Origin: Clostridiaceae bacterium
GTDB taxonomy: Bacteria; Bacillota; Clostridia; Acetivibrionales; DTU013
Assembly (NCBI GenBank): GCA_012519745.1
Contig: JAAYPO010000057.1
Coordinates: 1 to 44,151 of the forward strand
Direction: 5' to 3'
Length of the DNA: 44,151 nt
Shown here: in pieces, positions 1-25,051 of the stretch
Position numbering within the stretch: the first letter of the stretch is position 1
How the letters are laid out: each line of letters starts with the position of its first letter
Made by a program: the position numbers and the translations under genes
Notes under the pieces: model-generated
What the model saw: only the letters and a program-made list of their open reading frames with translations
What the model was told of the DNA's origin: nothing
Database searches by the model: none

Positions 1-494
1 AATCCCCATTATATCTCATATGGAACAGTCTAGGGGTTTTCCCCGGCAGTCAGACCGCTTCTTAGCCTCTTTTGCAAATATGGTTTCAAACAGCGATAAT
101 GCTCTCATACCGGCCAGTAATCGTGCATCTGATCTATTATCCACCATACCCACTCAAGGCAGGCTACGCTGTTCGCAGCATCATACGATACCGCCTAACA
201 GGTTTAATCCCTGATCGTAGTCGATACACAGCGTCATGTCTTTGAGCAGGAGAAAATCTCCATACCCGTCTGTCATGATTCTGCTTTCTTCCACAAGTCA
301 GGGTCTCCACGGTAAAGGGGTCAACGCCTGCATGCCATTGCAGATCGCCCCTGAACCTTAACTCCCAGCATCGACCCACCGCTGGGCGCAGCAAGCCGAC
401 ACAAGGAACTTCATCGATATGCCCTTAAACGGATTTTTAGGCCCGTCTTCAGAAGCGGCAGTACTGACTAGAATACTGCGCCACCTTGTTTCGA
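1..494 (-). ncRNA. ole: Probable OLE RNA, 3' part cut by the window edge
   Basis: This stretch directly downstream of ispA has no convincing reading frame but is full of short perfect hairpins. Examples are GCAGTA/TACTGC (458-463 with 474-479), CCCAGC/GCTGGG (364-369 with 381-386) and CTGCA/TGCAG (328-332 with 339-343), the last nested in TCAGGG/CCCTGA (298-303 with 349-354). Others are GGAGA/TCTCC (249-261), TACGAT/ATCGTA (184-189 with 214-219) enclosing CAGG/CCTG, and GGGG/CCCC (33-44). The known OLE RNA is about 600 nt, occurs in anaerobic and extremophilic Firmicutes, and lies after ispA, near dxs and the gene for its membrane partner OapA, in nusB-xseA-xseB-ispA operons. That is exactly this context. 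The identification rests on location, size, lack of coding potential and structure; I could not align it to the family model. The 5' end is placed from a promoter at 501-529. Confidence 0.78.
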
Positions 495-1519: not shown

Positions 1520-1529
1520 AGCATATGTA

Positions 1530-1606
1530 TGGTGACACTTCTTTGCAAGGGGTATTCCGGATTGTAAATCAGTAAACTGATTTGCAACGGGCGAGAAATG
1601 TCACCA
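1530..1606. repeat. Palindromic repeat element, copy A (TGGTGACA/TGTCACCA ends)
   Basis: This 77-bp element starts TGGTGACA and ends TGTCACCA. It has an internal stem (TGTAAATCAGT with ACTGATTTGCA) and the conserved stretch GGTATTCCGGATTG. Read on the minus strand it matches the elements at 24893-25031, with the same order of blocks (CCCGTTGCA, CAATCCGGAATACCCC). It fills almost the whole xseB-ispA gap and, when transcribed, would fold into a long hairpin. Confidence 0.8.
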
Positions 1607-1611
1607 ATGTC

Positions 1612-1836
1612 CTATACGGACAACTCCTTTTCTGTTATTCCGTTTTCGCCTTCGATGAGCATGGTTATGCTTCTTTCAGCTTCATCAAGCTTTTTGTTGC
1701 AGTACTTCGTCAGTTCGACGCCTCTCTTGAAAAAGCCTATGGACTCATCCAGCGTCAGCTCTCCTTTTTCTAGCCTCTTAACAATTCCTTCCAGCTCGGC
1801 CATCGCCTGCTCGAATGTGATTCCTTCACTGTTCAT
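1612..1836 (-). CDS. xseB: Exodeoxyribonuclease VII small subunit
   Basis: XseB joins XseA to form exonuclease VII, which degrades single-stranded DNA from both ends. The 74-aa helical protein carries the family pattern FEQAMAELEGIVKRLEKGEL followed by LDESIGFFKRG. I start it at the ATG preceded by AAGGGGG at a 6-nt distance; this start overlaps the xseA stop by 11 bp and implies translational coupling. A longer frame opening at 1857 would put the start far inside xseA without a good ribosome site. A palindromic repeat directly follows the stop. Confidence 0.93.
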   Translation of the reverse strand: MNSEGITFEQAMAELEGIVKRLEKGELTLDESIGFFKRGVELTKYCNKKLDEAERSITMLIEGENGITEKELSV

Positions 1837-3049
1837 TTTCATCCCCCTTGATACCATCTACAGTACAGTCCAGCTTTCCATCTGTCAGACTTATTTCAAG
1901 TCTTTGCCCCAGACTGACGGAATGCACCGATTTTATCAGAGTATCGTCCTTTTCAGACCTGATTATACAATAGCCCCTTGCCAGCGAACTGAGCGGACTG
2001 AGTGAATCCAGCTGTGCCGCCAGCAGAGAGAGTTTGTTCCTTTGATCGATCTTCAGAGCCTCCAGTGCCTTCTCCATATACCTCTTTTGCACATCCAGCA
2101 GCATCCTGCTCTGATAGATCCTGTTATACGGCTGCTTGAAGGCTGTGCTTCCTTCGAGCCTCTTCAGTGAAAGCCTTTCCATGGATGTCTTTTTATTTAT
2201 TGCATTTCTCAGCCGCATTTTCAACCCGTCCAGCCTGTTTTCCATCACAGCCCTCTCAGGCATGGCGATCTCTGCTGCTGCAGAAGGAGTGGGTGCTCTG
2301 ACGTCTGCCACAAAATCGCAGATGGTGTAGTCGGTTTCGTGACCCACTGCCGAGATCACCGGAATATGTGATCCATATATGCTTCTTGCAACGATCTCCT
2401 CATTGAATGGCCACAGGTCTTCAAGAGATCCGCCTCCCCGGCCGACAATGATCACATCCACATTATCAAGCTCATTGAACCGCCCGATGGCTGCAGCTAT
2501 CTGGCCTGCCGCCTGTTCTCCCTGGACCTGCACCGGGTAGAGCTTGATATTCACATTATAGAACCTTCTGCTCAGTACATTGATTATGTCTCTTATCACA
2601 GCACCGGTGGAGGAGGTGACAACTCCTATTGAACGCGGTATATATGGCAGCTTCTTTTTCTTTTCCGCATCGAACAGACCTTCTGCGGCAAGCTTGTTTT
2701 TCAGCTTCTCATATGCGATATAAAGAGCGCCTATCCCGTCAGGCTGCATTTCCTCTGCATACAATTGGTACTGTCCGTCCCGTTCAAAAACAGAAATGTA
2801 ACCTCTTATGATGACCTTCATGCCATCTTCAGGCATAAAAGCCACCGAGGATGCATTGGATCTGAACATAACACATCTCAGAAGTGATTTTTCATCCTTC
2901 AGCGTAAAATAAAAATGACCGGAATAGTGGTTCTTGAAATTCGATATTTCGCCCTTCACCCACAATCCGGAGAGTATGACATCCTTTGCTACAAGCTCCT
3001 TTATATATCTATTGAGTTCGGAGACAGTAAGTGCGCTCATTTTGGGCAT
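1826..3049 (-). CDS. xseA: Exodeoxyribonuclease VII large subunit
   Basis: This is the catalytic subunit of exonuclease VII, about 407 aa and normal for the family. The N-terminal OB-fold (ALTVSELNRYIK, LWVKGEISNFK, GHFYFTLKDE) binds single-stranded DNA. The middle catalytic domain shows GVVTSSTGAVIRDI, VDVIIVGRGGGSLEDLWPFN and PVISAVGHETDYTICDFVAD, all hallmark motifs. The C-terminal half is predicted coiled coil for XseB binding. The ATG at 3049 is chosen, but a TTG at 3058 overlapping the nusB stop and an ATG at 3040 are also possible, and no strong ribosome site decides. folD, often found between nusB and xseA, is absent here. Confidence 0.95.
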   Translation of the reverse strand: MPKMSALTVSELNRYIKELVAKDVILSGLWVKGEISNFKNHYSGHFYFTLKDEKSLLRCVMFRSNASSVAFMPEDGMKVIIRGYISVFERDGQYQLYAEEMQPDGIGALYIAYEKLKNKLAAEGLFDAEKKKKLPYIPRSIGVVTSSTGAVIRDIINVLSRRFYNVNIKLYPVQVQGEQAAGQIAAAIGRFNELDNVDVIIVGRGGGSLEDLWPFNEEIVARSIYGSHIPVISAVGHETDYTICDFVADVRAPTPSAAAEIAMPERAVMENRLDGLKMRLRNAINKKTSMERLSLKRLEGSTAFKQPYNRIYQSRMLLDVQKRYMEKALEALKIDQRNKLSLLAAQLDSLSPLSSLARGYCIIRSEKDDTLIKSVHSVSLGQRLEISLTDGKLDCTVDGIKGDENEQ

Positions 3050-3054
3050 GATAT

Positions 3055-3498
3055 TCAACCGCCGTTTTTCTGTGCTTCCGTATCGGAATCACTGATATTT
3101 GGATCAATGGAAGAAATCTTGCTCAGTATGCCGTTTATAAATGAGCCTGCTTCCTCACCGCTGTAACGCTTTGCCAGCTCCACCGCCTCATTTACCGACA
3201 CATTGTAAGGGATATCGCTTCTGAAGCAGATCTCGTATATGCTCAGGCGCATAATGGACAGATCGATTTTTGATATCCTGCTTATTTTCCATCCCTTGGA
3301 ATGCTTTTCTATCAAATTGCTGATGGATTCATTATTTGCAAAAACACCATCGATGATATCGTTTATGTATGCCTTGTCATTGGGAGCCAGCGAATTCTCT
3401 TCAAAGAAACGCTCCTTTTGAGCTTCCCGGTCATCCTTCTGTATTTCCAACTGGTATAACAGCTTCATAGCCATCTCTCTGGAGGCTCTGCGTCCCAT
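3055..3498 (-). CDS. nusB: Transcription antitermination factor NusB
   Basis: This 147-aa all-helical protein binds boxA RNA with NusE (ribosomal protein S10) and supports antitermination in rRNA operons. The N-terminus MGRRASREMAMKLLYQLEI and the later RYSGEEAGSFINGILSKI block, which in the family reads K-[FY]-x(6)-FVNG(V/I)L, identify it. The start follows a strong AAGGAGG site. It heads the nusB-xseA-xseB-ispA run and touches xseA, which argues for one transcript. Confidence 0.95.
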   Translation of the reverse strand: MGRRASREMAMKLLYQLEIQKDDREAQKERFFEENSLAPNDKAYINDIIDGVFANNESISNLIEKHSKGWKISRISKIDLSIMRLSIYEICFRSDIPYNVSVNEAVELAKRYSGEEAGSFINGILSKISSIDPNISDSDTEAQKNGG

Positions 3499-3801: not shown

Positions 3802-4362
3802 TTACTCCACTCTTGGCTTATATGTGACACCGGAGTAGATGCTGTCGACTATGACCCTTACATTCCTGACAGTTATGCCTGACGCATCCTCCACCGACTT
3901 TTTCACACATCCCTGCACCTCTTCGGAAATGACGGGTATACTGATATCAGGCATCACTACGACCCTCACCTCTATATCCACTCCATCATCTGCTTTTTTG
4001 ACCAGCGTCTTGGACTCCTTTATGCCATTTGACCTTTTACATGCATTGATTGCTATGTTTTCGATGGAATTAAGGGATATCCTTATTTCCCCAATATTAG
4101 TATGTTTACTGACAGCCTTTTTATCCTTGCCGCTTCTGACGCCTGATAAAAGAAACATGATGCTCAGTGCGAAAAACAGCAGGGCTGTGACGAATACGGC
4201 AACTCTAAGCGCCGTGGCATTATCTGTGGATATGACATGTATTATGCTCTCTGATATATCGACAAAGGCCTGGGGAACAATGACCACATACATCGCGAAT
4301 GCGGAAAACACTGCAAGGCAGAAAGCATATACAGCCAGCAGTACTCTGAAGAGAATTTTCAT
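3802..4362 (-). CDS. amaP: Alkaline shock response membrane anchor protein AmaP
   Basis: The 186-aa protein has two N-terminal membrane helices (about residues 5-32 and 51-72) followed by a cytosolic Asp23-like domain. AmaP proteins tether Asp23 to the membrane, and the asp23 gene is immediately upstream. Its C-terminal domain resembles the Asp23 fold (IEVRVVVMPDISIPVISEEV, then VRNVRVIVDSI). A terminator and a possible promoter lie between asp23 and this gene, so it can be expressed separately. GAGGGGTGG precedes the ATG by about 11 nt. Confidence 0.85.
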   Translation of the reverse strand: MKILFRVLLAVYAFCLAVFSAFAMYVVIVPQAFVDISESIIHVISTDNATALRVAVFVTALLFFALSIMFLLSGVRSGKDKKAVSKHTNIGEIRISLNSIENIAINACKRSNGIKESKTLVKKADDGVDIEVRVVVMPDISIPVISEEVQGCVKKSVEDASGITVRNVRVIVDSIYSGVTYKPRVE

Positions 4363-4429
4363 TTACCATACCACCCCTCATTATTTTTTCATCTTTTGTT
4401 GAATCGATCCCTTTATTATTATTATTAAC

Positions 4430-4458
4430 ATTATAGTTTATTTTCCCAAAAAAATAAA
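4430..4458 (-). promoter_or_regulatory. Possible promoter for amaP
   Basis: On the minus strand a perfect TATAAT (4435-4430) follows, after 17 nt, a weak TTTATT box that overlaps the asp23 terminator. It would drive amaP, DUF2273 and perhaps nusB onward. The weak -35 keeps this uncertain. Confidence 0.4.
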
Positions 4459-4474
4459 CCCTGACGGGTTTATT
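4448..4474 (-). terminator. Intrinsic terminator after asp23
   Basis: On the minus strand AATAAACCC-GTCA-GGGTTTATT forms a 9-bp stem with a 4-nt loop, followed by a run of T. It lies 14 bp after the asp23 stop and separates it from amaP. Confidence 0.85.
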
Positions 4475-4487
4475 ATCAAATACGTAT

Positions 4488-4892
4488 TTATTTTGTCCTT
4501 GTCTGTTCTTCCAACAATTCTTTTTTATGTTCCTTCTCTATATTCACACCCTGAATATGTATATTGACTTCCACCACATTCAAGCCCGTCATATCCTCCA
4601 CGGCATTCTTGACTCTCTCCTGTATATTCCATGCCACCTCCGGTATACGGTAGCCATACTCGACGATTATAAACAGATCGATTGCCGCCTCTTTTTCTCC
4701 TACCTCGACCTTCACACCTTTAGAAAGGTTCTTTCTTCCAAGGGCTTCAGCTATGCCCCCCGCTATGCCTCCGCTCATGGAAGTAACACCGGGGACCTCC
4801 ATTGCTGCTATACCGGCAATGATTGCCACCACCTCGTCGGTAATCTTTATGGTCCCTATATCATTGACTACGCTTTGAACATTCTCTTCCAT
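4488..4892 (-). CDS. Asp23/Gls24 family envelope stress protein (YqhY-like)
   Basis: This 134-aa cytosolic protein shows the Asp23 signature: DIGTIKITDEVVAIIAGIAA, then VPGVTSMSGGIAGGIAE, a central GVKVEVGEKEAAIDLFIIVEYG strand pair and the tail VVEVNIHIQGV. Family members are abundant, membrane-associated through AmaP and linked to envelope stress; YqhY of Bacillus affects acetyl-CoA carboxylase. Here the usual accB-accC neighbours are missing, while the spoIIIA operon upstream and nusB downstream keep the conserved order. A near-consensus promoter precedes it and a terminator follows, so it may be a single-gene unit. Confidence 0.92.
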   Translation of the reverse strand: MEENVQSVVNDIGTIKITDEVVAIIAGIAAMEVPGVTSMSGGIAGGIAEALGRKNLSKGVKVEVGEKEAAIDLFIIVEYGYRIPEVAWNIQERVKNAVEDMTGLNVVEVNIHIQGVNIEKEHKKELLEEQTRTK

Positions 4893-4926
4893 ATCTTACC
4901 TCCATAGGCTTATTAGTGTATAAAAT

Positions 4927-4955
4927 ATTATAACACTTTAACTGCAATGTGTAAA
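4927..4955 (-). promoter_or_regulatory. Sigma-A promoter of the asp23 gene
   Basis: TTTACA (4955-4950), a 17-nt spacer and a perfect TATAAT (4932-4927) on the minus strand precede the gene by about 35 bp. This is one of the best promoter matches in the window. Confidence 0.8.
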
Positions 4956-24886: not shown

Positions 24887-25031
24887 CATATTTGGTGACA
24901 CTCCTCGACCCGTTGCATTTGATTTATTCAAATTGCAATCCGGAATACATATTTGGTGACACTCCTCGACCCGTTGCATTTGATTTATTCAAATAGCAAT
25001 CCGGAATACCCCCTGGGGAGGAGTGTCACCA
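24887..25031. repeat. Palindromic repeat element, copies B and C in tandem
   Basis: A 61-bp unit is directly repeated (24887-24947 and 24948-25008) with one difference near the middle. The second unit continues to a TGTCACCA end at 25031, giving a complete palindromic element (24954-25031, TGGTGACACTCCTC paired with GAGGAGTGTCACCA). The first copy lacks its right arm. The element matches copy A at 1530-1606 in reverse orientation. It occupies the recG-rpmB gap. Confidence 0.85.
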
Positions 25032-25051
25032 TACCATTTTTCAAAAACACC

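Follow-up and report, generated by a model that had tools for sequence, protein, structure and literature searches.

The window analysed here is contig C124, a stretch of 44,151 bases in a genome of 138 contigs and 3.07 Mb. On its minus strand, positions 1–500 form a non-coding, structured stretch that lies directly downstream of ispA and reaches the end of the contig. OLE is a large structured RNA known from bacteria, and it binds the membrane protein OapA. This locus raises the question of whether the stretch is an OLE RNA gene and, if so, whether the gene is complete.

Results

The segment downstream of ispA encodes OLE RNA

A sequence-only reading of this DNA had proposed an OLE-type RNA downstream of ispA and named the Rfam covariance model as the check. 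The OLE model (RF01071) was run over the window with cmscan and gave a minus-strand match at positions 500–1 that scores 360.3 bits (E = 2e-102). The gathering score of RF01071 is 50 bits, and this curated cut-off is exceeded even by a copy truncated at its 3′ side. The covariance-model match settles the identity of the segment as OLE RNA. It also corrects the coordinates of the gene, which starts at position 500 (the 5′ end of the Rfam model), runs to position 1 and then leaves the contig. The match spans model positions 1–450 of 616, the 5′ three quarters of the RNA, and its 3′ side ends with the contig. The absence of a plausible protein-coding gene noted earlier was borne out: the segment carries no annotated gene, and the longest ATG, GTG or TTG open reading frames wholly inside it are 64–76 amino acids.

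The missing 3′ part lies on an adjoining contig

The match breaks off at model position 450 of 616, where the contig runs out, as it also would if the locus were a decayed OLE pseudogene, genuinely truncated near window position 1. A search of the genome with window positions 1–140 recovered, apart from the query itself, an exact 39-nucleotide identity (window positions 1–39, minus strand) with the first 39 bases of contig C5, an assembly overlap. The first 205 bases of C5 (L029:1–205) match OLE model positions 409–616 with 196.5 bits, so the model positions absent from the window are intact at the start of C5. Joining C124 and C5 at the overlap gives an OLE RNA of 666 nucleotides, of which the last 166 are L029:40–205. 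The composite aligns end to end, unbroken at the join, with the OLE RNAs of 30 relatives, and same-genus copies of 669–671 nucleotides that are uninterrupted by a contig end carry the sequence expected at the join. The conserved core columns are retained, and oapA and dxs follow the OLE 3′ part on C5. The join rests on the 39-nucleotide overlap and on homologues rather than on reads; provided that it holds, C5 refutes the pseudogene, which we regard as extremely unlikely. The missing end on C5 and the unbroken alignment with relatives indicate that the OLE RNA is full length and that the truncation is an assembly artefact.

Gene neighborhood on the two contigs

The sequence-only reading placed the RNA after nusB-xseA-xseB-ispA and suggested that oapA and dxs be sought to the left of the window. 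Both expectations hold. All four upstream genes are on the minus strand: nusB (3055–3498; PF01029), xseA (1826–3058; TIGR00237), xseB (1612–1857; TIGR01280) and ispA (629–1519), the farnesyl diphosphate synthase gene immediately upstream of OLE (PF00348, and NF045485 above its cut-off). On the adjoining contig, the order after OLE is oapA, dxs, tlyA, NAD kinase, argR, recN and spoIVB. The locus is almost certainly a full-length OLE RNA gene of 666 nucleotides within the standard cluster, nusB-xseA-xseB-ispA-ole-oapA-dxs-tlyA, and only a break in the assembly divides it.

The same reading described a variant operon lacking folD. The gene is indeed missing from the cluster and is found on contig C31. 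The closest named relatives with loci that cover the interval between nusB and xseA (for example L058–L064 and L066–L069) also have no folD there, whereas folD is present in the cluster of more distant relatives (L084–L086, L096, L103, L114, L131, L136 and others). Because clusters without folD are the norm among the closest relatives, we rejected the idea of a variant operon of interest.

A repeat inserted before ispA, also part of the earlier description, is present but is a minor feature. It is a hairpin of about 80 base pairs (GGTGACA...TGTCACC) at 1528–1606 on the minus strand, between xseB and ispA and about 10 nucleotides upstream of the ispA start codon. The repeat is absent between xseB and ispA in the two same-genus relatives inspected and appears to be peculiar to this genome. 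It has a handful of diverged copies in the genome; the element is found at window positions 1528–1606 and 24892–25034 (the latter, near 24.9 kb, a tandem pair), C2:1221–1291, C43:36960–37037 and C51:16386–16466. The dispersed element is an imperfect hairpin of about 80 base pairs, ends in GGTGACA/TGTCACC or GGGGACA/TGTCCCC, and is MITE-like or REP-like.

Conserved structure and the P7 arm

The sequence-only reading also counted at least seven perfect hairpins in the segment, and this count did not survive. With loops of 3–12 nucleotides allowed, the segment contains four perfect stems of at least 5 base pairs, two of at least 6 and none of 7, compared with shuffle averages of 2.9 (at least 5 base pairs) and 0.8 (at least 6), and the observed numbers are not above chance. 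Hairpin numbers at chance level would fit a coding segment, or an intergenic region of some other kind (a leader or a repeat cluster, for example) whose hairpins are fortuitous. The covariance search refutes that reading, and both the short open reading frames and the pattern of substitution argue against it. The 666-nucleotide composite is 75–85% identical to the OLE RNAs of the 30 relatives, with 285 invariant columns; 190 base pairs were predicted on a 27-sequence alignment, and 75 of them show compensatory changes. The probability that chance hairpins explain the segment is vanishingly small. The folding energy of the segment is −187.3 kcal/mol compared with −156.0 ± 6.9 kcal/mol for shuffled sequences (z = −4.52), and none of 100 shuffles folded as well. 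The predicted OLE secondary structure is conserved and is backed by this covariation. The OapC-binding k-turn region reported near P5, nucleotides 83–147 in Halalkalibacterium halodurans (PMC9723947), falls within an almost invariant stretch of the alignment.

The sole unusual feature of this OLE RNA is an extended variable stem at 220–302 on the minus strand, assigned to the P7 region by model position in the cmscan alignment, where an arm of about 59 nucleotides replaces the 8 nucleotides of the Rfam consensus. J6/7 through P8 is listed as variable in OLE (PMC12265935). The length of the P7-region arm varies widely among the relatives, and the OLE RNAs with a lengthened arm in this family are 645–711 nucleotides long. 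The arm hairpin has a folding energy of −22.5 kcal/mol (z = −1.7), and 8 of 200 shuffles folded as well, so that its fold does not stand out clearly from chance; the corresponding value for a same-genus copy is z = −0.25, so a shared fold of the long insert is unsupported. It is very unlikely that the lengthened arm represents an extra, lineage-specific domain that binds a partner of its own. Assignment to OLE variant 1 or 2 (shortened P7–P9, or lacking P7 and P8) was rejected because the P7 region is extended, not reduced.

OapA and the other OLE partners

The oapA gene on C5 is a 221-amino acid open frame (L029:242–907) directly after OLE, and its start codon is probably the TTG at L029:269. 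A profile of OapA that was built with this copy included matches it with E = 1.9e-101. The conserved cores of the protein lie around FDIIG-TAA-E-PFH-MA-RK and CNDV-GDI. The protein also bears a weak resemblance to CNNM (E = 1.4e-4, which does not reach the Pfam cut-off), in line with the reported structural relation of OapA to MpfA (PMC11332333). A search for a solved structure related to OapA returned nothing meaningful.

The linkage of the RNA and the protein was followed in both directions. The oapA gene is the immediate downstream neighbor of OLE in each of the 29 relatives with a long enough contig, and in other clostridia and bacilli all 14 OapA loci searched have OLE immediately upstream of oapA. 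The OLE of one of these loci (L084, Anaerosolibacter sp., 4315–4935) scores 404 bits compared with 500–558 for the other 13, and is possibly divergent.

Homologues of three further OLE partners named in the literature, OapB, OapC and bS21 (PMC9723947 and PMC12054373), are encoded in this genome. The OapB homologue lies between map and infA, and its best PDB match is 7k9b, “OLE-associated protein B” (E = 2.3e-12). The YbxF/OapC homologue lies between rpoC and rpsL and matches 3v7e/4lck. The bS21 homologue is encoded elsewhere in the genome.

MpfA is reported to anticorrelate with OLE. This OLE-bearing genome also encodes a second, full CNNM-domain protein (C72:161–742; L046, L054), which scores 177.8 bits.

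Distribution of OLE and OapA among relatives

OLE was found above the cut-off in 53 of 60 related genomes, with one copy in each. It remained absent from the other seven after they were searched again with laxer filters. OapA is absent from all seven and was found in three OLE-bearing genomes searched alongside. The genomes without OLE and OapA belong to the same genus, order or class (G004, G011, G018, G034, G057, G058 and G059). Two of them, from one genus, are at least 99% complete, and one of these is a single 6.9-Mb contig; their congener G025 has both OLE and OapA. Joint loss of OLE and OapA has therefore probably happened. The co-occurrence of OLE and OapA is a published correlation (PMC11332333), and their shared absence from seven genomes agrees with it.

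Discussion

The OLE RNA described here is an unexceptional representative of an established RNA class. With 666 nucleotides covering model positions 1–616, it resembles the OLE RNAs that Fernando and Breaker (2024; PMC11332333) class as full length. It belongs to the same family as the OLE RNAs with cryo-EM structures from C. acetobutylicum and C. botulinum (PMC12286853; the latter is discussed in PMC12265935), with highly conserved 5′ domain columns, and is longer than the 577-nucleotide C. acetobutylicum OLE.

Work on H. halodurans and the two clostridia describes a dimeric, OapA-bound, membrane-associated ribonucleoprotein that is needed under stress (PMC12265935, PMC12286853, PMC9723947). 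Judged by H. halodurans and by the cryo-EM structures from clostridia, the RNA in this organism would most likely dimerize. OapA would most likely hold it at the cell membrane, and OapB and the k-turn binder OapC (YbxF) would most likely bind it. The resulting particle would most likely help the cell to cope with cold, alcohols, high Mg2+ and poor carbon sources, the stresses connected with OLE in the literature. Nothing in the present data suggests a different role.

OLE RNAs have already been recorded from 2,822 Bacillota genomes (PMC11332333), and the one described here is typical of them. For tests of OLE's biochemical task it offers no advantage over the cultured species. The locus adds a further full-length OLE RNA, with oapA linked to it, to those of a lineage of anaerobes almost all of which carry OLE.
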